A stretch of DNA of 64,000 bases from Acorus gramineus. Taxonomy: Eukaryota > Streptophyta > Magnoliopsida > Acorales > Acoraceae. The notes under the pieces are model-generated. The model ran no database searches. It saw nothing but the letters and a program-made list of their open reading frames with translations, and was not told where the DNA came from. The translations under genes and the position numbers were made by a program. Position 1 is the first letter of the stretch. Each line of letters begins with the position of its first letter. Shown in pieces: positions 23,936 through 56,774 of the stretch. The stretch lies in the NCBI GenBank assembly GCA_030737835.1, contig CM060849.1, forward strand, positions 930,001 to 994,000, read 5' to 3'.

Positions 23936-26544
23936 TGTTATATATGTGTCACTTTTATCCTTCTGGTCACCATTGGAGCATTCTGGCAGTTTTTCAACTT
24001 TTTCTTTTTTCGATCGGAACCGCTAAAATTTTGGACTTTTAGCTATCATCCTAAGCCTAAGGTCTCCGATTGAAAATCTAACTACATATTATGTGTCCTG
24101 GTGCCATTCCAAGCCACTCACAAAAATTTCATCGAATTCCGGTAACGTTTCAGAATTTCGCAGTTCCGAATCGTATCCGGGTTTTGACCAAGCGAAAAGT
24201 CATTGGGAGACTTGACTTGGTCAATGTTGACCCTTGACTTGGTCAATTGGGTTTGTTTTCTAGTGTGGTTGGGTTGACTAGGGTCAAAGTGCACTTAAAC
24301 CTAACCTAACCTAGCTTAACCTAATTATTTTTTTTTCTAAGTGTGAGTGGTGAGTGTGTGAGTGTGTGTGTGCTTAAGTGATGTCCACGCCCAAGAATAG
24401 TTGCACTATTCATCATCTTCTCCATTTCAAGCTCTCTCTCTCTCTCTCCCTCTTTATTTCCTCCATGTGATCTAGCTAGGGTGGTTAAAAAGAAAAGCCA
24501 TAAAGGAGAAAAGGAAAGGTATGGACCCGATCTATCGTTCCATGGTCTCGGATCTTCATTCCCCTTTGTTTTTCCTCCTCTCTTACCTCCTTTTCTCCTC
24601 TGTTTTCAGCCCCGCTTTGGCTGAGAAGAGGGCTTGGTAGAGGTGGTCTTGGTGGTGGCAAATCGGTGCGCGAAGAGCACCCGAAGATCTCTCCTTTCCC
24701 GTCCTCCTTTGGGTAAGCTTTCTTCCTTCCTTTTTCTTGTGTAGATGCTTGTTTAGGGTTGCATATGGGTATGCATGGCATGCATGGTGGTTAGGGGGTT
24801 GGGGGGGGGGGGGGGGGGGGCTGTGGGGGGTGTGGGAGTGGCTCGGGCGCGCGTGCGGGGCCATCCGCGCGCGTGCGCGCGAGCCTGCGCGCGCAGGTAA
24901 GCGCAGGCAAGCGCAGGCGCGCAGTCGGGGCGCTGGCGGGCGTGCGCGCGTACGCGCAGGCTGTACACGCGGGCGTGCGAGCGGGTGCTGCGCTGGGGCG
25001 CAGTGCCCGCGGGTGCACCCGGGGCTGGACGCGCGGTGCGCGCGGGCGCACGGCAGTGCGCCCGGGGCGCGGGGCTGCGTGAGTGCGTGCGCACCCGTGC
25101 GTATGCGTGCGGGTGGCCGTGCGCATGGCTGCCGTGGGTGCGGGAGTGTGTCGGGGCACTCGGGCTCGCGTGCGTGCGGGCCGTATGCATGCTTGTCCGA
25201 GTGTTGGGTATTTCTAGCGTATTTCTTGTGTATTTGTGTATTTTACTCACCATTTTGATTCCCATGTCTTGCAGATCTCGACGGGCGGTCACGCGACGAC
25301 CCGGGTATTGGTGAGTGGGACAATCCAACCCAGTTGGGAGGCGTTCGATGCACGTAGGCGTGCATTGCCCTCCCCTGGGGCACCATAGTTGCATATTAGT
25401 TAGTATAAATTGTAAACTATGCATGCATGATTATTATGTAGTATCCATGCCACCCTAGGCCTTGCATGTTAGGGATATGTACCCTTATGATATGTGTAAA
25501 GGCCCAAGCATCCTGATACCATGTTTTCATGCTAGGGAAGCCCCGACCTACGCATGCGTCCCATTTAGTTTACTTTATTTAAATCAAATGCGAGTTTTGT
25601 AATTAGCATGCCTTAGAGAATATTATAACCTTGTGGTTATAATATATGCTTCCCCGCATCTTAGTTATGCGCCCTGGAGGAATTCTGAAGAATTCATGAC
25701 ATTTGTAGAGTTGAGATCGGTGTCGGCGGATCCAAGTGGATCGTATCCGTGTGGGTAGGCTGTTTCTCTTCCCTTCGTTGGATCCGTGTAGGGACTCCTC
25801 AGCGTTAGACAGGCCGTCCTGATAGAGGGCTCCCATCAGTAGGCACCTCCTGATTTGGTTTCGGACTGTGCTGAATCATGGGAGTAGACCAGGCGAGCTA
25901 CGGTGTGGAGGAGAGGCTATCGGTGGACCAAGGGTGATTAACAGCCTAGTCAGTCCCAAGAGACCATGTCACCAGTTTGAGGGTGAGGGTGAGGGTGTAA
26001 TGGGTTGGCGATGAGCGACCCACGGGTTTGTGTAGTTGTTGCCATTTAGAGGCTATGAATGATTTGAGGTTAATATGAATTGTGATGCATGGGTTGTGCT
26101 ATTCACTGAGCGTGTGGCTCACCCCTCGCATATATTTTTCTCCAGTGATATCTGAGTCGGATCGGCAGGAGGAGCTCCCCAAGGCACGTTAGCAGTAGCG
26201 GAGCAACGTCACCTTTCTGCTTGAGAGAGGCCATTCAGCATCCCCCCCTTTGATTGTATGTATTGTATTCCGTGCTTGAGCACACGTTTGTATTATATTT
26301 GGATGTCGTTGTATATATTGGCTCTCACAGGACAGTTGATTATGTATCGAGTCTGTAATATGTCTTTGAATTACAGATTCAGTCTTTTAGCTTCCGCTAT
26401 TTGTGTATATATCATGTCAGCCTCTTTGTTGTCTGTGTTGTCATTGTTGATATTGTTTGAGTATATTATTGACATCTTGTATAGACTGCAGATATCATAT
26501 ATACACTTGCCGCGTCCTGGGGACGGCCGCCCTGGGGCGTGACA
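23936..26544 (+). mobile_element. Solo LTR E (long type-2 LTR), 2.6 kb, inside B
   Basis: Starts TGTTATATATGTGTCAC and ends CCCTGGGGCGTGACA. The surrounding sequence on both sides is LTR B. A CGTGT repeat is compatible with a target duplication, but its left copy overlaps the LTR end, so this is less clean than for D and H. Layout: U3 with CATCGAATTCCGGTAACG, a leader, a donor-like GTAAGC at 24713, a very GC-rich block (24839-25190, with a pure G run near 24799-24820), an acceptor TTGCAG ending 25274, a 36-bp conserved block, a GTGAGT at 25311, a four-G-run motif at 25981-26004, and a TTCTCCAG acceptor-like site ending 26145. No internal coding region, hence solo. Confidence 0.85.
24713..25274 (+). 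other. Putative intron inside LTR E
   Basis: Bounded by G|GTAAGC and TTGCAG|ATCT. The same boundaries occur in LTRs C (37568-38547), J (52355-52834), H (28535-29072, minus), L (48813-49718, minus) and F (56088-56606, minus). Lengths run from 480 to 980 bp, the interior varies strongly and is CpG-rich, and the flanks are conserved. LTR fragment I lacks this block exactly at the junction. Confidence 0.65.
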
Positions 26545-27270: not shown

Positions 27271-29846
27271 TGTCACGCCCCAGGGCGGCCAACCCCGGGA
27301 CGCGGCAAGTATATATAATATCAGCAGTCCATACAGGAGATCAATAATAGACTCTAAACAACATCGAAAATGACAACGCAATCAATAATGTAGCTGACAT
27401 AATATATATACATATAGCGGAAGCTTAAACGACTGAGTCTGTAATTCAAAGACATATTACAGACCTGAATACATAATCAACTGTCCTGTGAGAGCCAATA
27501 TAAACAAAGACATTCATATACAAGTGTTGTGCCCAAGCACGGATAACAATACATACAAGCAAGAAGGGGATGCTGATGGCCTCTCACTTGCAGAACCCAA
27601 AACGTGAACGCTGCTCTGCTACTGCTGTGATGCCTCGGGGAGCTCCTCCTTCAGATCCGACTCAGTAACAACTGGAGGAAAAGAATATGCGAGGGGTGAG
27701 CCACACGCTCAGTGAATGGCACAATCTATGCAACACAACTCATATTAACCTTAAAATATTTAAAGTCCCTAAACGGGAGTAACTGTACAGGTCGTAACAC
27801 CGCCGACCCACCCCACCCTCACCCTCACCCTTTAAGGGGTGACATGGGCCTTTTGGGACAGACTAGACTGCTCTCCACCCTTGTCCACCAGTAGCCTCTC
27901 CCTCGCGTAGCCTCTACCTGGTATACTCCCACGATCAGTACCCTCCGACGCATCGGTGGTACCTACAGATGGGAGCCCTCTGTCAGGACAGCTTTCCAAC
28001 GCCGGGGAGTCCCTACTCGGATCCAACGAAGGGGAGAAAATAGCCTACCCACACGGATACGATCCTCTTGGATCCGTCGACAACGATTTCTAACACTACT
28101 AATGTCATGAATTCTCAAGAATTCCTCCAGGGCGCATAACTAAGATGCGGGGAAACATATATTATAACAACAATGTTATAATATTCTCTAAGGCATGCTT
28201 ATAACAATATAATCTCATTTGATTTAAATAAATTAAACTAAATGGGAAACATGCGTAGATCGAGGCTTTTCAAGCATGGGACATGGTGTCTAGGCATGTA
28301 TGGGCCTCTATACATGATACATGGATGTATATCCCTAGCATATAATGTCTAACAAGGCATGGTTATATCATAGCAAACATGCATTAACATGGTTTTTCAT
28401 TGACACAAGTTAATATGCAATTATGGTGCCCCAGGGGAGGGCAATGCACGCCTACGTGCATCGAACGCCTCCCTACTGGGTTGGATTGACCCACTCACCG
28501 AAACCCGGGTCGTTGCGTGACCGTTCGCCAAGATCTGCAAGACATGGGCATTCAATATGGTGAGTAAACTACACAAATATACATGAAATTTACTAGAAAT
28601 ACCAAATACTCAGACAAGCATGCATACGGACTCGCACGCATGCGAGCACGCACGTACGCACGCGAGTCCGAGTGCCCCGACACCTACCCGAACCCTCGGG
28701 CAGCCACACGCATGGCCCCCCGCATGCGCACGCACGCATGCGCGCGCACGCACGCGCTCTAGCACCCATGGAGCACTACCGCGTGCTTGCCCGTGCGCCC
28801 AGACGCACTGCCGCGCGCTCGCGCGCACCGCGTGTCCAGCCCGCGTGCCCTCGCACGCACCGCGCGCCCGTGCAGAACCCCGAGCGCACGCCCGGGCACC
28901 AGCGCCCGTCTGCGCGCGCAGATGCGCGCGCACGCGCGCGGATGGCTCCGCGCGCACGCCCGAACCCCTTCCACCCCCTCCTCAGCCCACCCACACCCCC
29001 TACCACCTATGCAATGACCACTTAAAAAACCTAACAATCATCCAAACAAGCTAAGGGAGGAGGAGGACTTACCAAAAAGGAGGGGAAGGAAAAAGGGGGA
29101 AGCTCGGGTGCCCTTTGCGCACCAAACCACCACAACCGCCACCACCAAGACCACCACCTTCTCAGCCACTCACAAGCCCTTGATGGCTGAAAACAGAGGT
29201 GGGGAGGGAAGGCATGAGAGGGAGATAGAGAGAAGGGAAACAAAAACAAACACCACACAAAGGTTGCACACACACATACCTTCACTTCTCCTCTCTAGGT
29301 CTTTCTTCTTCTTCTTCTTCTACTACCTCTATTTGGAACAAAAAGAAGAGGGAGTGATGGAGTGTGTGAGAGGGAGATGGAGATGGGGAAGAAGGGGGAC
29401 GCCCACTAATAGGACCTCACACTACACTCACACACACACTCATTAATGAAAAAAATGAAGGGTTGGTGAGGCTTGACTTTGAGTCAACCCAACCACACAA
29501 AAAAACAAAAGGGTTTGACAAAGTCAATGGTCAAATTTGACTTGGTCCAAGTCTCCTTGACTTGGTCAAGTCTCCCTTTGACATTCCAAATCGGTCAAAA
29601 TCCGGATACAATTCGGAACTGCCAAATTTCTAAAACGTTACCGGAATTCGATGAAATTTTTGTGAGTGGCTTGAAATGGCACCAGGACTCATAATGTGCA
29701 GTTAGATTTTCAATCGGAGCCCTCGAGCTCATGCAGATAGCTAAAAGTCCAAAATTTTAGCGGTTCCGATCGAAAAAAAAAAATTTGGAAAACTGCCAGA
29801 ATGCTCCAATGGTGACCAGAAGGCAAAAAGTGACACATATATAACA
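27271..29846 (-). mobile_element. Solo LTR H (long type-2 LTR), 2.6 kb, inside B
   Basis: Minus orientation: the left edge is TGTCACGCCCCAGGGCGG and the right edge ACACATATATAACA. Perfect 5-bp target duplications AGTAA at 27266-27270 and 29847-29851. It carries the putative intron (28535-29072), the GC-rich block (about 28640-28975) and the four-C-run complement of the G motif (27807-27830). No gag or pol, therefore solo. Confidence 0.88.
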
Positions 29847-37248: not shown

Positions 37249-38896
37249 TGTAAGCTAAAAAAAGGTTCCTACACTATTCATCATCTTCTTCCTTGGAATT
37301 TCTCTCTCCCCCTCTCTCTTTTTCTTAGTTTTGAGCCACCTAGAGGGCTTGGAACTTAAAACTCAAAGCATAGAAAGGTTATATCTGGTCCCGATCTACA
37401 CCCCGGTGTTTTCGGATTCGAATTCCGGCGTGTTTAGCCCCTTCTCCCCCTCTCTTTTCTCCCCTGACTTGAGCCATTTCAAGGGCTAAGGAAGAGCTTG
37501 GCGGTGGAGGTCCTTGGGGAGGTGTTTCGGTGCGCGGAGAGCAACCGAACTTCCCTTCCTTCCCTTGGTAAGCTCTTTTTCCTTCTTTTTTTGGCTTAGA
37601 TGCTTGTTAGGAGGGTGGTTTTGAGGTTGGGTGGTGGTCGGCGGCTGTGGGTGGCTGTTGGTGGTGGTTGGGAGGCGGTTGGAGGCCATTGGTGGCCAGA
37701 GGGAGGAGGTTGGGCTGCTTGGGCAGGGTGGTTGGCTGTCCCGGGTAGGATGGCAGCGGGCGGAGCAGGCATCGCATCAGGTGGCCGGGCGCGAGAGCGC
37801 GTGCGCGCAGGCGTGCGCTCGGGTGGTGCAGGGGGCGTGCTAGGCGCACTGGGTAGGCTGGCATGTAGGAGGCAAGCAGGCGGGCAGTGCTCGGGCAGCA
37901 GGCGAGCGGTGCTCGGGCCATTCGGCGATGCGCGCAGGCAGGCAGCGCGGGCAAGCAGCGCGGGCAGGCTGGCAGGCGCGCTGGGCGTTGGGTGAGGGTC
38001 CCGGGTGCTGGGCGCTGGGTCGCGGATGCTGGGCGCTGGTTGTGGGCGATGGGGCGCTGCGAGGAGGGCGCCGTGCGGGGGCGTGCGTGCGGAGAGTAGA
38101 GGCGCAGGCGCGCTGTGCGTGCGCGGCGAGTCGATGGAGTGCTGGGCGAGCGGATGGTGCGCGCGGAGCTAGGCGAGGGCGCGGTTAGGCGAGCGGTGGT
38201 GCACGCGGGGTGCGCGCGGGGCGAGGAGCTGGGCGTAGGGCGTGCGGTGAGCACGCGGGCTGCTGTGCTGGGGCGCAGTGAGAGCGCGGTGCACTCGGGA
38301 AGCTCGGCAGGGTGTCCGGGCGTGCAGGCTGGGTTCGGCAGGGCGCCTTGGCGCGCGGGCCGGGGCTCGGCTATGCGCCCGGGGCAGGTGGCCGTGCGTG
38401 CGGCTGCCCGGGGGTTCGGGAGTGAGTCGGGAGGCTCGGACACGCGTGCGTACGGGCCGTATGTACGTTTGTCCGAGTGTTGTGTATTTTAGTGTATTTT
38501 GTTGTATTTGTGTATTATACTCACCGTATTAAATACCTGTCTTGCAGATCTTGACGGACGGTCGCGCGACGACCCAGATACCGGTGAGTGGGACGATCCA
38601 ACCCAGTAGGGAGGCGTTACATGCACTTGGGCGTGTACCGTCCTCCCCTGGGGCACCATAGTAAATATTAACCTGTTTAATATGAAAATTATGTAAGCAT
38701 GATAATCTGTAGTATGCATGCCACCCTAGATTTGTATGCAAGGAACTTATACCCTTAGGACCCGTATAAGAACCATGCACCCTGTTATCATGTTTCCATG
38801 CTAGGAAAGCCCCGATTGATGCATGTTCCCATTTAGTTTAATTTATTTAAATAAAATGTGAGCATGTGATTATTAGCCTGTCTTAGTGAATATTAT

Positions 38897-39020: not shown

Positions 39021-40072
39021 AATATTCCAACCTCTTTATTATTATAACGCATGTTTCCCCGCATCCTGGTTATGCCCTGTTGGAATTCTGAAGAATTCAA
39101 GGCATTAGAGTTGTAGAGATGTGTGGTCGGCGGATCCGAATGGATCATATGCGTATGGTTAGGCTGTTCTGTTTCCCTTCGTTGGATCCGTGTAGAGACT
39201 GCCCCAGCGTTAGAAAGGCCGTCCCTTCCGAGGGCTCCCATCAGTAGGCGCCTCCCGATATTTGTGACGGACTGTGCTGAAGTGTGGGTGAAGGCCAAGC
39301 GGCCTACGGAGTGGAGGAGAGACTATCGGTGGACCAAGGGTGACCAACAGCCTAGTCAGTCCCAATATCCTATGTCACCCATAGAGGGGTGAGGGTGAGG
39401 GTGTGGTGGGTCAGCAATGAGGTGACCCACTGGTTTGTGGAATTGTGGTCTAAGGATGATTATTAGATTAGTAAGTCTTAATATCCTATGTCACCTATTG
39501 AGGGGTGAGGGTGAGGGTGTAGTGGTTCGGCGATGTAACGGACCACTGGATTTATGTTGTTTATGCCACTTTGAGGCTGGTTGTTGATTAATTGTGGTTA
39601 ATATAGCTGTGATGCATGGGTTGTGCTGTTCACTGAGCGTGTGGCTCACCCCTCGCATATGTTTTCTCCAGTTGCCACTGAGCCGGATCAGCAGGAGGAG
39701 CCTTCCGAGGGATTCCTTCAGTAGCGGAGCAGCGCTACGTCCCGCGAGTGTTAGAGGCTATCAGCATCCCTTTTTGGCTGTATGTATTTTATTTCCGTGC
39801 TTGAGCACGCGTTTCTATATATTCAGTTGTATATTGTGTATATTGGCCCTCACAGGACAGATGATTGTGTATCGAGTCTGTAGTATGTTTTTGGATTACA
39901 GACTCAGTTTTTTAGCTTCCGCTATCTGTGTATATATTATGTCAGCCTTGCTTTCATCTGAGTTGTTGTCATTTTAGTTGTTGTTTAGTGTGGTTTATTG
40001 ATTCCCTGTATAGTTGCTGATATCATGTATACACTTGCCGCGACCCTGGGACGGCCTCCCTGGGGCGTGACA

Positions 40073-42670
40073 CAACAGATGGAAGCAACTACTTAAGCTA
40101 GTGGGTCGTTTAACAACCCGAGCCCACCACACCTTCACCTTCACGGAATGACTTAGGACTATTGGGAGAAAGTCGACTGTTCTACACCATTCGTCATCCG
40201 GTAGCCCTCTCCAGAGTAGCCTCTACCTGGTGGCTTCTCATGACCGCTACCTCTACCATACGGGCGCACCAATAGGCGTCATGAGTAGTGTCTGGTAGCA
40301 CATCGCAGGACAGCTATAAGCTGGGCAGCTTCAACATGGAGCCGACGAAGGGGAGAACACTCGACACTCGCGAATATGATCCTCATGGATCCGTCGTCAT
40401 CTGTTATTAGACATCGAAAAAAGGTAACAAATTCTCATGAATTCCCTTCAGAGCGCATAACTCAGATGCGGAGAAAACATATCATTCGTAGTGTCAATGC
40501 CATGGTATGACCATCAGAGGTCATACACTTGCTTAACCTCATTAGGCAAGGTTCATGGCTTCATATAAGTATATATATAATATACAACATATAATTAATT
40601 ACACAAGGAATTAATCATGGAAGCATTTAAATAAATATAATAACAAGGTTATAATATCATATGAGGCATGCTTATACCTATACATCCTCATTAAGTTAAA
40701 TTAAATTAAATTAGATGGGAACATGTATGGATCAAGGCCATGCTAATATGTGACATGGTATCTAGGCATGTATGATTCCTATACATGATACATGGATGTT
40801 TAGCCCTAGCATACAATATCTAACATGGTATGGGTGCAACTTAGCAAGATAGGCAATAACATATACATATTCTCAAATAAGTTAATATGCAATTATGGTG
40901 CCCCAAGGGAGGGCAATGCACGTCAACGTGCATCGAACGCCTCCCAACTGGGTTGGATTGACCCACTCACCGTAACCCGGGTCGTTGCGTGACCGTTCGC
41001 CAAGATCAGAGGGGAAAGAAAGGGGAGATTCGTGGGTCCTCGGCTGCACCCACGGCTACCACAACCACCACCACCACCACCACAACCCCTCAAGCTCCTT
41101 CACTCCTATGAATGGCTTAAGCTTTCTCTTGTGCTTCTTCTTCTTCCTTTCCTTCTTCAATCAACACACACACACAAAACACAGAGGGAGAGGGAGAAAC
41201 GTGAGTGAGAATGTGTGAGAGAGTTCAAAAGTTCTCTTTGGAGGGGGGGCAGTGCAATGGAAAAAGGGGGGGGGGGGGTAAACCTAACCTACACTCACCC
41301 TCTAATACACAAAATAACCAAGAATTCCTTAGCTATTAAGCAAGAGGGGGGTGAGGTTACCATATTCACCAAAATATCCAAACACTATGCCACCCACCAA
41401 ACCAGTAACGCCCAAACCTGGATACGGTTTTGAACTGCATAATTTTTAAAACGTTATTAGAATTCGATGAAATTTTTATGGGTGATACAAAATGGTACCA
41501 GGACTCATAATATGCAGTTAGATTTCCAATCGGAGTACTCAAACTCACGAGATGGTTAAAAGTTCAAAATTTTAGCGACTCCGATCGAAAAAAAAAATGG
41601 CCAGAAATGACCCAAATATAACCAATAGGCTAAAAGTGACACATATATAACATTCTTCCCCCTTAGGAAATTTTGTCCACAAAATTTAAAACAAAAACAT
41701 CTAGGAAGGGAAAAGATGCGGATATGCATCACGCATGGCATCCTCGGGCTCCCAGGTGGCATTGGCACCCGAACGGTGCTGCCAACGCACCTTAACCAAC
41801 TGGATGGTCTTGGTGTGGAGCCTCTTTTTGCGTTGGTCCAAGATCTCGATCGGCTGCTCCACGAACGACAAGTCCGGCTCAAAGACGAGCAACACGACGG
41901 GATGACGTGAGCAGAATTGTGGACGTAACGGCTCAGCTACGAGACATGGAAGACGTCATGGGCATGAGCCAACTGTGGGGGCAAGGCTATGCGATAAGCC
42001 ACCTCTCCAATCTGCTCAAGGACTAGAAACGGGCCAATGAAACGCGGACTCGACTTGCCCTGCACACCGAAATGGAAGATACCCTTTGACGGGGACACCT
42101 TCAATAAAACATGGTCACCAACCTCGAAGGCGAGCGCATGGCGATGATGATTGGCGTAGCTCTTCTGACGGCTTTGAGCGGTGTGGATACGCTCACGAAT
42201 CGTCTTAACCTTCTCTGAGGTCTGACGAACGATCTCCGGTCCCTCCAACTGGCGCTCTCCAACCCCGTCCCAACATAAGGGAGATCTGCAGCTGCAGCCG
42301 TAGAGTGCCTCATACGGTGCCATCTGAATACTCGAGTGGTAGCTGTTGTTGTAGGTGAACTCCACCAACAGAAGATGCCTCTCCCAACTACCCCCAAAGT
42401 CGAGAATGCAGGCATGCAGCATGTCCACCATGGTCTGTATCGTCCTCTCTGACTGGCCATCCTCTCTGACTGGCCGTCCGTAGAGTGCCTCATACGGTGC
42501 AATCTGAATACTCGAGTGGTAGTTGTTGTTGTAGGTGAACTCCACCAATGAGAGATGCATCTTCCAACTGCCCCCAAAGTCGAGAATGCAGGCACACAGC
42601 ATGTCCTCGAGGGTCTGTATCATCCTCTCTGACTGGCCGTCCGTCTGCGGATGAAACGCTGTACTGAAGT
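40073..42670 (-). mobile_element. Gypsy fragment I: partial LTR plus integrase end
   Basis: Minus orientation. The LTR start (TGTTATATATG) is at 41652, and the LTR runs left to 40073, where C begins, so its distal part is missing. The polypurine tract is at 41653-41667 and integrase sequence at about 41700-42670: [81 protein letters not shown] and a chromodomain-like end (VKVRWQHRSGA). The integrase part contains a short internal repeat. The fragment ends where an A-type LTR end begins. Broken, with several breaks. Its LTR lacks the family intron (junction 41006/41007) but keeps the later GTGAGT site. Confidence 0.8.
41006..41007 (-). other. Intron-less junction in LTR I
   Basis: In sense orientation the LTR reads TTTCCCCTCTG|ATCTTGGCGAACGG. 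In copies F, H and J the same flanks are separated by GTAAGC…TTGCAG and 480-540 bp. The acceptor side is exact; the donor side differs by a few bases inside a pyrimidine run. This is what reverse transcription of a spliced LTR transcript would leave. Confidence 0.7.
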
Positions 42671-42960
42671 TGTAACGCCCCCGAATCCACGACTCCATTT
42701 TGAAGCGTGAAATCCAGTTGCGTTAACTTAATTCCTCAAATCTCAAAGTTCTACATATATATTTTTTTCATCCAAAGAACATAAGAATACATCACCATAA
42801 TTATACATATAAGAGAAGCGCGAAAGTCTTCTACCATATCCTTGGTTGGGACAACCCCAATCACAGTAGCACTCGCCGACTTGGGCCTCATTTGGGTGAT
42901 GTCTTTGTGGGTCCATCTTCTCCACCCGCCGAATAGCCCTCTAATCTATCCCCGCATGTA
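42671..42960 (-). repeat. End fragment of an A-family LTR
   Basis: Starts TGTAACGCCCCCGAATCC, then GACTCCATTTTGAAGC. This is the reverse complement of the end of element A's LTR (GCTTCAAAATGGAGTC…). Similarity is clear for about 100 bp and then fades. No second end or target duplication was found. Confidence 0.55.
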
Positions 42961-47400: not shown

Positions 47401-50400
47401 TGATAGCCTCTGGCACTCGTGGAACGTAGCGCTGCTCCGCTACTGAAGGAATCCCTCGGAAAGCTCCAACTACTGCTCCGGCTCCAGCTCAGGCTCAGTG
47501 GCAACTGGGAAAAACATATGCGAGGGGTGAGCCACACGCTCAGTGAACAGCACAACCCATGCATCACAGACAATATTGACCACTATCCAGATCTTAATAA
47601 TCCACAATCTCTTATTAACAACCACAAAATGGTAACAAATACTCAACTAGTGGGTCGCTCAATCGCCAACCAACTACACCCTCACCCTCACCCTTTAATG
47701 GGTGACATAGGATTTTGGGACTGATAATCATCCAATCACAACTCCAATGGGTCGCTCATCGCCAACCCACTACACCCTCACCCTCACCCTTCCACGGGTG
47801 ACATAGGATTTTGGGACTGACTAGGCTGTTGGTCACCCTTGGTCCACCGATAGTCTCTCCTCCACTCCGTAGGCCGCTGGGCTATCACCCCCACAACTTC
47901 AGCACAGTCCGTCACAAATATCGGGAGGCGCCTACTGATGGGAGCCCTTGGAAGGGACGGCCTTTCTAACGCTGGGGCAGCCTCTACCGGATCCAACGAA
48001 GGGGACATAACAGCCTATCCATACGCATATGATCCACTCGGATCCGCCGACAACGCATCTCTACAATTCTAATGTCCTGAATTCCTCAGAATTTCTCCAA
48101 GGCGCATAACCCATATGCGGGGAACATACACAATAATTAGCAAGGGTGGAATATTATTGGGGGAAAGAAACTTGGGAGGGCAGCGTGAGTTCCCGATATA
48201 GGACACCCCGACAACCAAACAAGGAACACGGAGTACCCTAGCCCGGGTCTTACCGCTGTCCTCGCAAGGCCCCTCCCCTATAATATTCACTAAATATGCT
48301 AATAATCATATAATATGGTATAACATTTCTTATAATATTATTGGGACAAGAAACCTTGGGAGGGCATCGTGAGTTCCCGATACAGGACACCCCGACAACC
48401 AAACAAGGAACACGAAGTACCCTAACCCGGGTCTCAGTGTTGACCTCGCAAGGCTCCTCCCTATAATACTATCTAAGGCATGCAATTTATCATACACTAG
48501 CATTTAATTTAATAAATAAACTAGTAGGACGCATGCATAGGCCGAGGCTTCCTAGCATGAGAACTGGGGGACATGATGCATGGCTCATACACATATCCTA
48601 GGGGTGCAAGTTCCTAACATGCAAAGTCTAGGGTAGCATGCATTCTACAATTAAATCATGCTCGCATGGAATATACATTACGATAGGTTAATATAAATCC
48701 ATGGTGCCCCAGGAGAGGTCGGTATACGCCCAAATGCGTATAACGCCTCTCTACTGGGTTGGATTGTCCCACTCACCAGAAACCGGCTCGTCGCGCGACC
48801 GTCCGTCAAGATCTGCAAGACAGGCATTTATACGATGAGTTAAATACACAAATACTCCAAAATACATTAAAAATACTCTAAAAATACCCAACACTCGGAC
48901 AAGCATACATACGGCCCGTACGCACGCGTATCCGAGCATCCCGACTCACTCCCGAACCCACCGGGCAACCGCACGCACGGCCACCCGCCTCGGGTGCACA
49001 GCCGAGCCCCGGCCTGCGCGCCAATGTGCCCTGCCGAACTCAGCCCGCACGCCCGGACACCACCGGCGTACTGCCGCACGCCTGCCAGCGCGCCCTGACG
49101 CACCGCCGCACGCACGCGCACGCTCGCGTGCGCCCGCGCGCACCGTGCGTCCAGCCCAGCGCGCCCCCGAGCGCACTGCACGCACGCCCCAGCACGCGCG
49201 CGCACTGGTCCCCAGCACCGCGCCCAGGCGCATGCCCAGGCGCCCTGCCCAGCACCCAGGCACAGTGCCCAGGCGCCCTGCCCGCGCGCGCGCACGCTCG
49301 CGCGCACTCCCGAGCCCGCCCGCGCGCACCCGCGCGCACTCCCGTGCACACCCCCGCTCGCGCCAGCACCCGCGCGACCACTCCGCGCGCACGCACCCGC
49401 CAGCGCCCAGCACCCGCGCCCAGCGCCCAGCACCCAGCGCCCAGCGCCACCCGCGCGCACACCCGCGCGCACGCCCTCGCGCACGCGCGCGCGCCTCTGC
49501 CAGCTGCTGCGCCTGTGCTGCCTGTGCTGCTGCCTGCTGCCCGGGACTGCCAGCCTGCCAGCTCGAGCTCCTCTACCACCCACCTCCGACCACCCCAAGG
49601 ACTCCGACCACCTCGCACAGCCCTCCGACGGCCACCCACCGCCGCCGACCACCACCCAACCTCAAATCCACCCTCCTAGCATACATCTATGCAAGAAAAG
49701 AGAGGAAAAGTGGCTTACCAAGGGGAGGAAAGGAAATCTGGTTGCTCTCCGCGCACCGAAACCTTTCCCCAAGGGCTTCCACCGCCCGGATCTCACTCGG
49801 CCTTCGAAACAGCCCAAAACAGAGGAGAAGAGAGGGGGGACGGAGGGGCTAATCTCGCCGGAATCGGGATTTGAAAGCACCGGGGTGTAGATCGGGACCC
49901 GATCTACACTTCCTATGCTTTAGGTTTTTGGGTTTGAGGGGTCTAAGGGCTTCAAAAGCAAGAAAAGAGAGAGGGGAGAGAGAAAATCCAAATGGTAGGG
50001 ATGATGAATAGTGCCCAAGATATTTTCTCACCCACCTTATATAGCCGGGTCACTTAAAAACCCAGATACGCCCCGAAACTGTGAAATTTTGGAAACGTTA
50101 CCGGAATTCGATGAAATTTTCGTGAGAGGCTTAAAATGGCACCAGGACACCAAATATGCAGTTAGATTTCCAATCGGAGTCCTCTAACTCAGGACGATAG
50201 CTAACAGTCCAAAAATTAGCGGTACCGATCGAAAACAAAAAAAAACGAAAAACTGCCAGAATGCTCCAACGGTTACCAGCAGGCTAAAAGTGACACATAT
50301 ATAACACGTCGAGGGGAGGTATCAAAATTTTGATAATGGACGAGTACAAAAATGTTATATCATCGACTAGAAATGTAGTATTCAAGGAGATTTTCAGTGA

Positions 50401-51706: not shown

Positions 51707-54121
51707 TGTTATATATGTGTCACTTTTTAGCCTATTGGTCATATTTGGGTCATTTCTGGCCATTTTTCCAATTTTTCATTTTTCCAGTAACGTTTTAAAA
51801 ATTATGCAGTTCCGAATCGTATCCGGGTTTCGGTCGTTTCTGGTTTGTTAGGAGGAATAGTGTTGGGATATTTTGGTGGTTAAGGTGACCTTGGGTAACC
51901 TCACCCCCCTATTGCTTAAAGAGTAAGAAAACTATGGATATTTTAAATGTGTGTGGGTGAGTTTAGCTTAGGTGCACCCCCCCCCTTTTTCCCTTCTCAT
52001 CACCACCCCCAAATGGTGGAAAAAGTGGGCTCTCTCTCTCTCCCTCACCATTCCCACGTCTCCCTTTCACTTGTGTGAATGTGTGTGTGTGTGTGTTCTT
52101 TTGAAAGAAAAGAAGGAGAAGAAGAAGCAAAAGAAGAGGAATAGTGTAAGAGGAAGAGCACTCAAAGGTGTGTTTGTGTTGTTGTTGTTGTCCCTTTCTC
52201 TCTTTCTTTCTCTCTAGCTTTCACCCCTCTCATGCTCCCCTTTTTTTGCCCCTGATTTGCAGCCAAGTAAGGCTGAGGAGGTGGTGGTGGCGGTTGAGGT
52301 GGTTTTGGTGCGCCAAGGGCACCCGAATACCTCCCCTTTCTTTCCCCTCCTTTGGTAAGCTCTCCTCCTCCCTTATCCTTGTTTTAAATGGTTGTTAGGG
52401 CTCTTAGGGTGTTCATGCATGCCATGCATAGGTGGTAGGGTGAGTGTGAGGGCTGAGGAGGGGGTGGGAGAGGTTTGGGCGCGCGCGCGGGGCCATCCGC
52501 GCGCGCGCGCAGAGGGGCGCTGGCGCGCGCAGTCGGGCGCGCTGGCGGGCGCGTACGCTTACGGGCAGGCGCGCAAACGTGCGCGCGGCAGTGCGCCAGG
52601 GGGTGCTGGGGCGCGTGCGTGCGTGCGTATGCGTGCGTACGCGTGCGGGGGGCCATGCGTGTGGCTGCCCGAGGGTTCGGGTAGGTGTCGGGGCACTCGG
52701 ACTCGCGTGCGTACGTGCGTGCTCGCATGCGTGCGAGCCCGTATGCGTGCTTGTCCGTGTTTTTGGTATTTCTAATAAATTCCATGTATATTTATGTAGT
52801 TATACTCACCATATTGAATGCCCTTGTCTTGCAGATCTTGGCGAACGGTCACGCAACGACCCAGGTTGCGGTGAGTGGGTCGATCCAACCCAGTTGGGAG
52901 GCGTTCGATGCACGTAGGCGTGCATTGCCCTCCCCTGGGGCACCATAACTACATATTAACTTGTGTGAATAAAAACTTATGATAATGCATGTTTTGCTAT
53001 GATGTAACCATGCCATGTTAGACATTGTATGCTAGGGATATACATCCATGTATCATGTATAGAAGCCCATACATGCCTAGATACCATGTCCCATGTTTGA
53101 AAAGCCTTGATGTATGCATGTTCCCATCTAGTTTAATTTAATTAAACCAAAATGAGAATATATTAGTATAAGCATGCCTTAGAAAATATTATAACCTTGT
53201 TATTATAATATGTTTTTCCCCGCATCTTAGTTATGCGCCCTGGAGGAATTCTTGAGAATTCATTACCTTAGCAGTGTTTAGTAATCGTTGTCGACGGATC
53301 CAAGAGGATCGTATCCGTGAGTGTAGATTGTTTTCTCCCCTTCGTTGGATCCGTGTAGGAACTAACCGGGTTGGGAAAAGCTGTCCTGACAGAGGGCTCC
53401 CATCTGTAGGTACTACCGATGCATTCGGGAACGTACTGACCATGGGAGTATACCAGGTAGAGGCTACCTGGGGAAAGGGCTACCGGTGGACCAAGGGTGT
53501 AGAGCAGTCTAATCTGTCCCAAAAGTCCTATGTCACCTCTAAAGGGTGAGGGTGAGGGTGTGGTGGGTCGGCGTCGCTACGACCCACCAATTTGTACAGT
53601 TACTCCCATCTTGGGATTTTAATGATTTTTAAGGTTAATATGAGTTGTGTTGCATAGATTGTGCCATTCACTGAGCGTGTGGCTCACCCCTCGCATATCT
53701 TTTTCCTCCAGTTGTTACTGAGTCGGATCTGAAGGAGGAGCTCCCCGAGGCATCGCACCAGTAGCGGAGCAGCGTTCGCGTATTTGGGTCTTGCGAGTGA
53801 GAGGCCATCAGCATCCCCCCTTTTTTTGCTTGTATGTATTGTTACTCGTGCTTGGGCACAATATTTGTATGTGGATGTCTTTGTCTTTTAATTGGCTCTC
53901 ACAGGACAGTTGATTATGTATTCTGGTCTGTAATATGTCTTTGAATTACAGACTCAGTCGTTTAAGCTTCCGCTATATGTATATATATATTATGTCAGCT
54001 ACATTGTTAATTGTGTTATTACCTTTGAAGTTGTTTAAAGTCTTTTATTGATCTCGAGTATGGATTGCTGATATTATATATATTTGCCACGTATCGGGGA
54101 CGGCCGCCCTGGGGCGTGACA
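51707..54121 (+). mobile_element. Solo LTR J (long type-2 LTR), 2.4 kb, inside G
   Basis: Starts TGTTATATATGTGTCAC and ends CCCTGGGGCGTGACA. Perfect 5-bp target duplications GTTAC at 51702-51706 and 54122-54126. It has the shortest putative intron of the set (52355-52834), a GC-rich block (about 52475-52745), a four-G-run motif (53544-53567) and an acceptor-like CTCCAG ending 53711. No coding interior. Confidence 0.9.
53544..53567 (+). promoter_or_regulatory. Potential G-quadruplex in LTR J
   Basis: Four GGG runs spaced by TGA, TGA and TGTGGT. Equivalents: 25981-26004 (E), 39387-39410 (C), and on the minus strand 27807-27830 (H), 55207-55230 (F) and two weaker ones in L. Position relative to the LTR end is conserved. 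Confidence 0.6.
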
Positions 54122-56774
54122 GTTACTAGATTGGGAGTTGAGACTTGACTAAAGGGTGACTTTGACCAAGTCAAAGGTGAGTTTTGTTTGGTTGTGGTTG
54201 AGTTGACTTGTTAACCCCCACCAACCCCTTTTTCCCCAATTGAAAACTCTCTCGCTCTCCCTCTCACCCATCCAAGCTCTCTTTCTTTCTTTCTCTCCCT
54301 CTCAGTTGTGTGCATTTGGTGGAGAAGATGAAGAAGAAGAAGGAGATCATGGAGAAGAAGAAAGGAAGGTGAGTGTGTGCTTATGTGTGTGTTGTTGATG
54401 ATATCTTCTCCTCCTCCTCCTCCTGTAGCTCCCCCTCTTAATTTCCCTTTGTCTCCCCCCTCCCCGTTTGGTCCAGCCAAGAAGAAGAGAAGCAAAGAAG
54501 ATGTGGTTGTAGTGGTGGTGGAGGTGGGCATGGGTGCGCTTAAGGGCCCTTGCATCTCCCCCTTTCCCTCCTCCTCTCTTGGTAAGTATTCCCTCTTCCT
54601 TTTCTTGTTTATTTGCATGTGTGGGTGTGTTTGGGGTCATGCATGCAAGGTGTTTGTGTCAGGCCCCAGCGCGGCTGTCCTCGATACATGGCAAATATAT
54701 ATAATATCAGCAGTCCATACACGAGATCAATAAAAGACTCTAAACAACATCGAAGGTAATAACACAATTAACAATGTAGCTGACATAATATATATACATA
54801 TAGCGGAAGCTTAAACGACTGAGTCTGTAATTCAAAGACATATTAAAGACCAGAATACATAATCAACTGTCCTGTGAGAGCCAATATAAAACAAAGACAT
54901 CAACATACAAGTACTGTGCCCAAGCACGAGTAACAATACATACAAGGAAAAAGGGGGATGCTGATGGCCTCTCACTCGCAAGACCCAAAACGCGAACGTT
55001 GCTCCGCTACTGGTGCGATGCCTCGGGGAGCTCCTCCTTCAGATCCGACTCAGCGACAACTGGAGGAAAAAGGTATGCGAGGGGTGAGCCACACGCTCAG
55101 TGAATGGTACAATCCATGCAACACAACTCATATTAACCTTTAAAAAATCATTAAAGTCCCTAAGATGGGAGTAACTACACAAATTGGTGGGTCGTAGCGA
55201 CGCCGACCCACCACACCCTCACCCTCACCCTTTAGAGGTGACATAGGACTTTTGGGAGAGATTAGACTGCTCTACACCCTTGGTCCACCGGTAGCCCTTT
55301 CCCCGGGTAGCCTCTACCTGGTATACTCCCACGATCAGTACGTTCCCGATTGCATCGGTAGTACCTACGGATGGGAGTCCTCTGTCAAGACAGCTTTTCC
55401 CAATGCCGGGGAGTTCCTACATCGGATCCAACGAAGGGGGGGAAACAATCTACACTTGCAGATACGATGCTCTTGGATCCGTCGACACCGGTTTCTAAAC
55501 ACCGATCGGTAACGAATTCTCAAGAATTCCCTCCAGGGCGCATAACTCAGATGCGGGGAAAACATATTATTCATAGTGACAATTGCCAAGTATGACCCCC
55601 ATAAGTGGTCATACACTTGCCTAAACTCATTAGGCAAGATTTGAGGCTCAACTTAAGCATATAACATGGATAATAAATACACAAGGAATTCATCATGGAA
55701 GCATTTAAATAATATAATAACAAGGTCATAATATTTTCTAAGGCATGCTTACACTTATGCTTTTCATAGATAGCTAAGGGTATACTTAGGCAAGGTCGGG
55801 GTGCATGTAGGAATCAAATGTTATCCTAACATGGGACATGATGCATGAACAAGCATTGGACCCTACACATGATACTAGGATGTATAACCCTAACATGTTA
55901 GGTCTAACATGACATGGATGCAACCTAGCAAGCCCAATAATAACATATACATGCAAATATGGTTAATATGCAGTTATGATGCCCCAGGGGAGGGCAATGC
56001 ACGTCTACGTGCATCGAACGCCTCCCAACTGGGTTGGATCGACCCACTCACCGCAACCCGGGTCGTTGCGTGACCGTTCGCCAAGATCTGCAAGACAAGG
56101 GCATTCAATATGGTGAGTATAACTACATAAATATACATGGAATTTACTAGAAATGCCAAAGACTCGGACAAGCACGCATACGGGCTCGCACGCATGCGAG
56201 CACGCACGTACGCACGTGAGTCAGAGTGCCCCGACACCTACCCGAACCCTCGGGCAGCCACACACATGGCCCCCGCACGTGTACGCATGCATAAGCACAC
56301 GCGCACGCGCCCCCGCACCCCCTGGCGCACTGCCGCGCGTCCAGATGCGCTGCCGCCCCTGCACCAGCTCCTCGCTCGCATGCTCCCGCGCCTGCGCCCG
56401 CCAACGCGCCCGACTGCGCGCGCCAGCACCCCTCTTCACGCAAGTCTGCGCGTGCACGCACGCGGATGGCCCCGCGCGCACGCCCAGACCTCTCCCACCC
56501 CCTCCACAGCCCTCACACACACCCTAACCCACATGCTTGGCATGCATGATCACCCTAATAGCCCTAACAACCATTAAAACATAGATAAGGGAGGAGGAGA
56601 GCTTACCAAAGGAGGGGAAAGAAAAGGGGAGGTATTCGGGTGCTCTTGGCGCACCAAAACCACCGCAACCGCCACCACCAACACCACCACCTCCTCAGCC
56701 TTACTTGGCTGAAAATAAGGAGCAAAAGGGGAGCATGAGAGGGAGCCTAAGAGAAGGGAATCAACAATCACTAC

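Follow-up and report, generated by a model that had tools for sequence, protein, structure and literature searches.

Introduction

The intron of the plant LTR retrotransposon Ogre is located in the internal region of the element, where it affects gag-pol. The introns of BARE1 and EVADE are placed in the internal region and described as affecting gag-pol in the extracts available of two articles (PMC3735527; PMC12786077), the second of which, a 2025 review, names Ogre and EVADE as exceptions to the general absence of introns from plant LTR elements. For BARE1, two RNA pools have been reported (PMC3735527, extract). In foamy viruses, according to the extract of PMC3694450, the LTR carries the major splice donor within its R region, ahead of the poly(A) signal, and the binding of U1 to this donor suppresses polyadenylation. 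In intron-marked retrotransposition reporters, first built with Ty, the loss of the intron shows that an RNA intermediate was used (PMC12786077, extract).

The LTR family of Acorus gramineus described here resembles Ogre, EVADE and BARE1 in that its RNA would occur in spliced and unspliced form, for which distinct roles have been proposed in the extracts on those elements (PMC12786077; PMC3735527), the splicing being read here from the DNA. Unlike in these elements, the putative introns lie wholly within the LTR, so that each element has two copies of each, and spliced forms turn up as new insertions. Whereas only a donor has been described in the foamy-virus LTR, the LTR studied here contains the donor and the acceptor of two whole introns. 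As compared to the intron-marked reporters, the case is natural, located in the LTR and has been run many times in one genome. A search of the open-licence literature with fixed phrases retrieved no report of plant LTRs with whole introns inside them, and none of LTR introns in the chromodomain-bearing Ty3/gypsy group.

Results

The LTR family and its copies in the window

One Ty3/gypsy LTR family is abundant in the 399 Mb genome, and several of its LTRs are located in the window, which is the whole stretch of 64,000 nucleotides that was analyzed. The LTRs begin with TGTTATATATGTGTCAC and end with GGGGCGTGACA, with the polypurine tract (PPT) AAGGGGGAAGAA upstream and a primer-binding site (PBS) with TGGTATCAGAGC downstream. 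The following features were identified in addition to those within the LTRs:

41937..42722, minus strand, C-terminal part of the integrase (SH3_Tf2-1 match) of the element owning LTR I
41701..41955, minus strand, end of the pol reading frame beside LTR I, with a chromodomain match just below the Pfam cutoff
51707..54121, plus strand, LTR J, apparently solo, with GTTAC on both sides
27271-29846, LTR H, which looks solo, with a 5-bp duplication, TTACT

The C-terminal domain of the integrase is of the Tf2/gypsy type (PF24626, E 8.5e-21, 74.3 bits against a cutoff of 30), and the match of the pol end to a chromodomain lies just under the cutoff (PF00385, E 4.1e-5, 23.9 bits against 25.1). The integrase C-terminal SH3 domain, the PBS and the 5-bp target site duplications (TSDs) are features shared with chromodomain-bearing Ty3/gypsy elements, to which the near-cutoff chromodomain match may also point, and the family may be a Tekay/Del-like chromovirus. 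The LTRs also seem to recombine across subfamilies, since in the genome copy L093 exon 1 clusters with the third-type LTRs and exon 2 with the J/H-type LTRs.

Two probable introns within the LTR

Six LTRs in the window contain a block with GT...AG ends, here called intron B, and the coordinates at which it had been placed in the initial annotation were all correct. A second, shorter intron, intron A, was identified about 100 nt upstream of intron B in an alignment of the leaders; the two are separated by exon 1, which is about 100 nt long. The LTR had been thought to hold one intron, and while intron B stands, the number has to be raised to two. The introns and exons in the window are:

52168..52262, plus strand, intron A of LTR J, 95 bp, GTGTGT...TTTGCAG; the homologous intron is absent from block-less copies
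52263..52354, plus strand, exon 1 of LTR J
52355..52834, plus strand, intron B of LTR J, 480 bp, GTAAGC...TTGCAG
52835..52870, plus strand, exon 2 of LTR J, 36 nt, followed by donor-like GTGAGTGGG
24519..24609, plus strand, intron A of LTR E, 91 bp, GTATGG...TTTTCAG
24713..25274, plus strand, intron B of LTR E
29187..29279, minus strand, intron A of LTR H, 93 bp
28535..29072, minus strand, intron B of LTR H, 538 bp
37568..38547, plus strand, intron B of LTR C, 980 bp
48813..49718, minus strand, intron B of LTR L, 906 bp
56088..56606, minus strand, intron B of LTR F, 519 bp

The length of intron B ranges from 428 to 980 bp in the 43 complete blocks measured. It starts with GT in 44 of 45 block-holding copies and ends with TTGCAG in 41, and a branch-site-like motif (CTCAC, CTCAT or CTTAC) is located 23-26 nt before the acceptor in 40. 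Intron B thus has the GT...AG ends, the branch-like motif and the acceptor signal of a spliceosomal (U2-type) intron. Its GC content is 59-71% in 42 of the 45 copies, which is unusual among plant introns, described as mostly U-rich in the extract of PMC3735527, and counts against reading the block as an intron. Intron A is 85-95 bp long and has the ends GT...TTTTCAG or GT...TTTGCAG.

Both introns are probably located in the 5' leader (R/U5), preceded by a TATA-like box. A TATATA or TTTAAG motif is found 28-37 nt upstream of CTATTCAT in 7 of the 16 leaders aligned, and a CT-rich stretch and then intron A follow; the motif is missing from the leaders of I and L058 and from the J-, H- and third-type leaders. 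The placement of the motif upstream of intron A favors the leader position. Alternatively, the splicing could be real and the introns located in U3, to be spliced from the 3' end of a transcript whose start site lies beyond the block and near the LTR 3' end. U3 often makes up most of an LTR, and TATA-like runs are present close to the LTR 3' end, but TATATA/TTTAAG, CTATTCAT and the CT-rich stretch before intron A resemble a plant core promoter and leader, and we consider a location in U3 unlikely.

Most of the copies that were read, including seven LTRs in the window, contain a further donor-like sequence, GTGAGTGG, 36-39 nt into exon 2. Changes at this site were observed in a few copies (among them L002, L047, L062 and L066), and the length of exon 2 varies among the third-type LTRs. 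The sites in the window, with an acceptor-like sequence, are:

25309-25319, 38582-38592 and 52869-52879, plus strand, donor-like GGTGAGTGGG, 36 nt into exon 2
56043-56053, 48768-48778, 40962-40972 and 28490-28500, minus strand, donor-like GGTGAGTGGG, 36 nt into exon 2
39662-39671, acceptor-like TTTTCTCCAG, near the LTR 3' end

In L112, the acceptor-like TTTTCTCCAG is matched by CTTTTCTTTTCAG. It is possible that TTTTCTCCAG is the partner of the GTGAGTGG donor. When the genome was searched for the loss of such a third intron, from GTGAGTGG to TTTTCTCCAG, the sole exact match to the pattern with the J-type exon was a point mutant, and the joined pattern with the C-type acceptor had no matches. 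If the exon-2 donor were joined to an acceptor beyond the PBS, reverse transcription of the product would be impossible, and this would explain why the donor was not found spliced. The conserved GTGAGTGG donor is the nearer analogue of the foamy-virus donor and may, like it, act on polyadenylation.

Fragment I and other copies lacking intron B

Fragment I, a 3' LTR on the minus strand, starts at 41652 and was apparently cut at 40073 by an insertion carrying LTR C. It consists of the following parts:

41007..41652, minus strand, 5' part of the 3' LTR, beginning with TGTTATATATGTGTCAC after the PPT, with exon 0 and exon 1 joined
41115..41116, minus strand, junction A, CTTAAG/CCATTC, short intron A absent; placed by eye from L002, L003 and L008, a few bases uncertain
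41006..41007, minus strand, junction B, CCCCTCTG/ATCTTGGCGAACGG, block absent
40073..41006, minus strand, exon 2 and further LTR sequence

Read in the sense direction, the block-holding J-type copies have ...CTCCTTTG/GTAAGC...TGTCTTGCAG/ATCTTGGCGAACGG, as compared to ...CCCCTCTG/ATCTTGGCGAACGG in fragment I. The absence of the block and the joining of its flanks at 41006/41007, from which the analysis started, were confirmed. Fragment I clusters with L002 and L003 in trees of both exon 2 and exon 1, which points to a small block-less lineage and to no fresh event in I.

The block-less junction pattern had 110 matches in the genome, as compared to 19 for the reversed control. At least 60 block-less sites from two subfamilies were recognized by eye from the matched letters among the 100 of the 110 matches that were listed, with one more uncertain. 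In the third subfamily, there were 28 block-less pattern matches and none for the control; these 28 are pattern matches only, in which the final exon bases are those at the donors in L076, L078, L079 and L088. The total is thus at least 88 block-less sites (60 among the matches listed and 28 third-type). The block-holding acceptors numbered 3934 of the J-type (3 mismatches), 8024 of the C-type (1 mismatch) and 4572 of the third type (2 mismatches), where the J-type and C-type counts may overlap and the pattern tolerances differ. With patterns of such unequal tolerance, block-less copies amount very roughly to half a percent.

These block-less copies have one shared junction: in 29 of the 33 copies whose DNA was read, the match to exon 1 runs up to ATC with offset 0. 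Leftover bases remain at the junction in L002 (3 nt), L003 (4 nt) and L008 (2 nt), and L070 has no exon-1 match. Since most of the copies were located by the junction pattern, the exactness is partly a result of selection; eight were located by BLAST as well. The control was a sample of 27 loci selected by exon 1 (L016-L042), of which 20 contained a complete block and six a block that starts at the donor and breaks off inside. The remaining locus, L023, has an ordinary deletion (L023:1825), with one end inside the block and the other 60 nt into exon 2. A gap starting at the donor was found in none of the 27 loci.

Wherever the donors differ between subfamilies, the junction tracks the donor. 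TTGG/GTGAGC in L095 corresponds to TTGG/ATC in L061, while at third-type sites CTCTTTTG/ATCTCG corresponds to CTCTTTTG/GTAAGT in L078, and CTCCCTTG/ATCTCG to CTCCCTTG/GTGAGC in L076. The initial annotation had described the acceptor side as exact and the donor side as exact to within a few bases; both hold, and in close pairs (L061 against L094 or L095) the donor side is itself exact.

Joint loss of introns A and B

In the subfamilies that possess intron A, this intron was absent from 11 of 14 block-less copies (I, L002, L003, L005, L008, L046, L057, L058, L061, L069 and L071). In the other three, L056 has lost intron B and kept intron A with good splice sites, L066 has kept the 3' part of intron A, and in L064 intron A was hit by an ordinary deletion of 84 bp that left both splice sites. 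In the alignment, L005, L046 and L061 have the gap at the splice sites of intron A, and L057 has it at the acceptor side; the remaining seven losses were judged by eye against diverged relatives, with a few extra bases in I and L058. No gap of 50 bp or more was observed at intron A in 48 block-holding copies, some of which, such as LTR F, are truncated upstream. The association between the loss of intron A and the loss of the block has a Fisher p of 7e-10, which is only indicative because the rows are related and not independent. The intron A region is retained in 19 C-type block-less copies, and no good intron A donor was seen in the C-type leaders that were aligned.

The best case is L061 in comparison with L094. 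The two are identical at 581 of 581 bases in exon 2 and at 102 of 103 in exon 1, with about 94% identity in exon 0, and L061 lacks both introns of L094, A (91 bp) and B (626 bp), exactly removed to leave joined exons. On the exon-2 side, L061 is 100% identical to four block-holding copies, as compared to about 88% for the nearest other block-less copies.

Repeated loss and ordinary insertion

In the exon-2 tree of 61 rows there were 12 changes between the block-holding and the block-less state, of which 11 are forced by starred branches; the tree is without 13 of 74 rows that ran into foreign sequence, which lowered the number of changes from 13 to 12. The exon-1 tree of 75 rows had 10 state changes, all 10 forced. 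The counts give no direction in themselves. BLAST matches link 61 of the 66 pairs among 12 ordinary intron B blocks from different subfamilies, and with blocks homologous across subfamilies, losses are the simpler reading, according to which the block was lost many times. The block-less copies could instead be an old, separate subfamily that never held the block, the block being a later insertion. Some block-less lineages do exist (I/L002/L003 and L053/L072 in both trees, L050/L051/L052 in the exon-2 tree), but the changes of state, at least 10-12 on the two trees, the loss of intron A along with the block, the homology of the blocks and the near identity of L061 to the block-holding L094 make a separate subfamily exceedingly improbable. 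A single origin of the block-less state was also rejected by the bootstrap analysis, with either state in one clade in 0% of 200 trees.

Nine same-strand block-less LTR pairs were tried for TSDs, of which C58, C82 and C55 have the far LTR end outside the piece examined. Five of the six pairs resolved are flanked by 5-bp TSDs: C78 (TTATG), C2 (ACCAT), C54 (AGACT), C59 (TTTCT) and C65 (AGATT); a TSD was absent at the C3 pair (C3:2044645/2050203). Both LTRs were read in C78, C2 and C54, with pair identities of 98.4, 97.0 and 95.4%, respectively, while one LTR of C59 and both of C65 are block-less by pattern match only. The PPT precedes seven block-less 3' LTRs, and the PBS follows the block-less 5' LTRs L008 and L071. 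The block-less elements thus have the two LTRs, PPT, PBS and TSD of LTR retrotransposon insertions.

These data also bear on removal of the block at the DNA level, whether through deletion or recombination or because a mobile insert was excised. Deletions do occur in the LTR DNA, as in intron A of L064 and intron B of L023, but both of these end away from the splice sites. A deletion would not hit one and the same GT and AG from subfamily to subfamily, take two separate introns together as in L061 or recur in both LTRs of TSD-flanked elements. Deletion was rejected on the joint intron loss in L061, the trees and the TSDs, and we regard any removal from DNA as very improbable.

An unrelated intron B in third-type LTRs

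Three third-type LTRs contain an intron B that is unrelated to the others:

L080:1515-2031, L081:990-1508 and L083:1515-2033, unrelated intron B
L038:2-365 and L061:565-868, relatives

The intron B of L080, L081 and L083 is 517-519 bp long with a GC content of 38-39%, and had no BLAST match to the 12 ordinary blocks. The exons are like those of other third-type LTRs, and the switch in sequence falls at the splice sites GTAAG and TTGCAG. Over 300 bp, exon 2 of L080 shares 97.0% of its bases with L079 and 96.7% with L091; the identity in exon 1 is about 80%. LTR introns might be replaceable, if a spliced, intron-less LTR RNA gained a foreign intron by reverse splicing at the junction of its exons and was then reverse-transcribed. 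We consider such a course of events rather doubtful; if true, it would mean intron gain as well as intron loss within one family.

Discussion

Precise joint removal of both introns in close pairs, many separate losses and insertion by ordinary retrotransposition are all observed in the DNA. The best explanation, and in our view a highly probable one from the sequences, is that the LTR contains two spliceosomal introns and that some transcripts were spliced and then reverse-transcribed. The shared junction, the joint loss of intron A, the TSD-flanked elements and the state changes, at least 10, support the original proposal that a real LTR intron was spliced from an RNA that was reverse-transcribed. 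The further suggestion that every transcript of the family is spliced found no such support, as most copies keep the block.

We propose that host spliceosomes take introns A and B out of some element transcripts. Since both introns are wholly within the LTR and upstream of the PBS, the spliced RNA would retain the PBS and the repeats. It would still be a template and, once reverse-transcribed and integrated, yield a new element with both LTRs intron-less. The block is kept in nearly all copies, so the usual template must be unspliced, a situation comparable to the two RNA pools of BARE1 (PMC3735527); this would allow the introns to persist in thousands of copies, the spliced form serving mainly as mRNA. 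Another possibility is that the intron is restored when an early strand transfer goes to the 3' LTR.

The family would thus provide a natural retrotransposition assay with many repeats, in which each block-less element records the copying of spliced rather than full-length RNA. Because the genome allows both kinds of template, spliced and unspliced, to be counted, the separation of mRNA and genomic RNA in LTR elements becomes testable. The finding raises the question of how introns stay unpurged in a repeat that is regenerated in every cycle, and it provides datable examples of intron loss.
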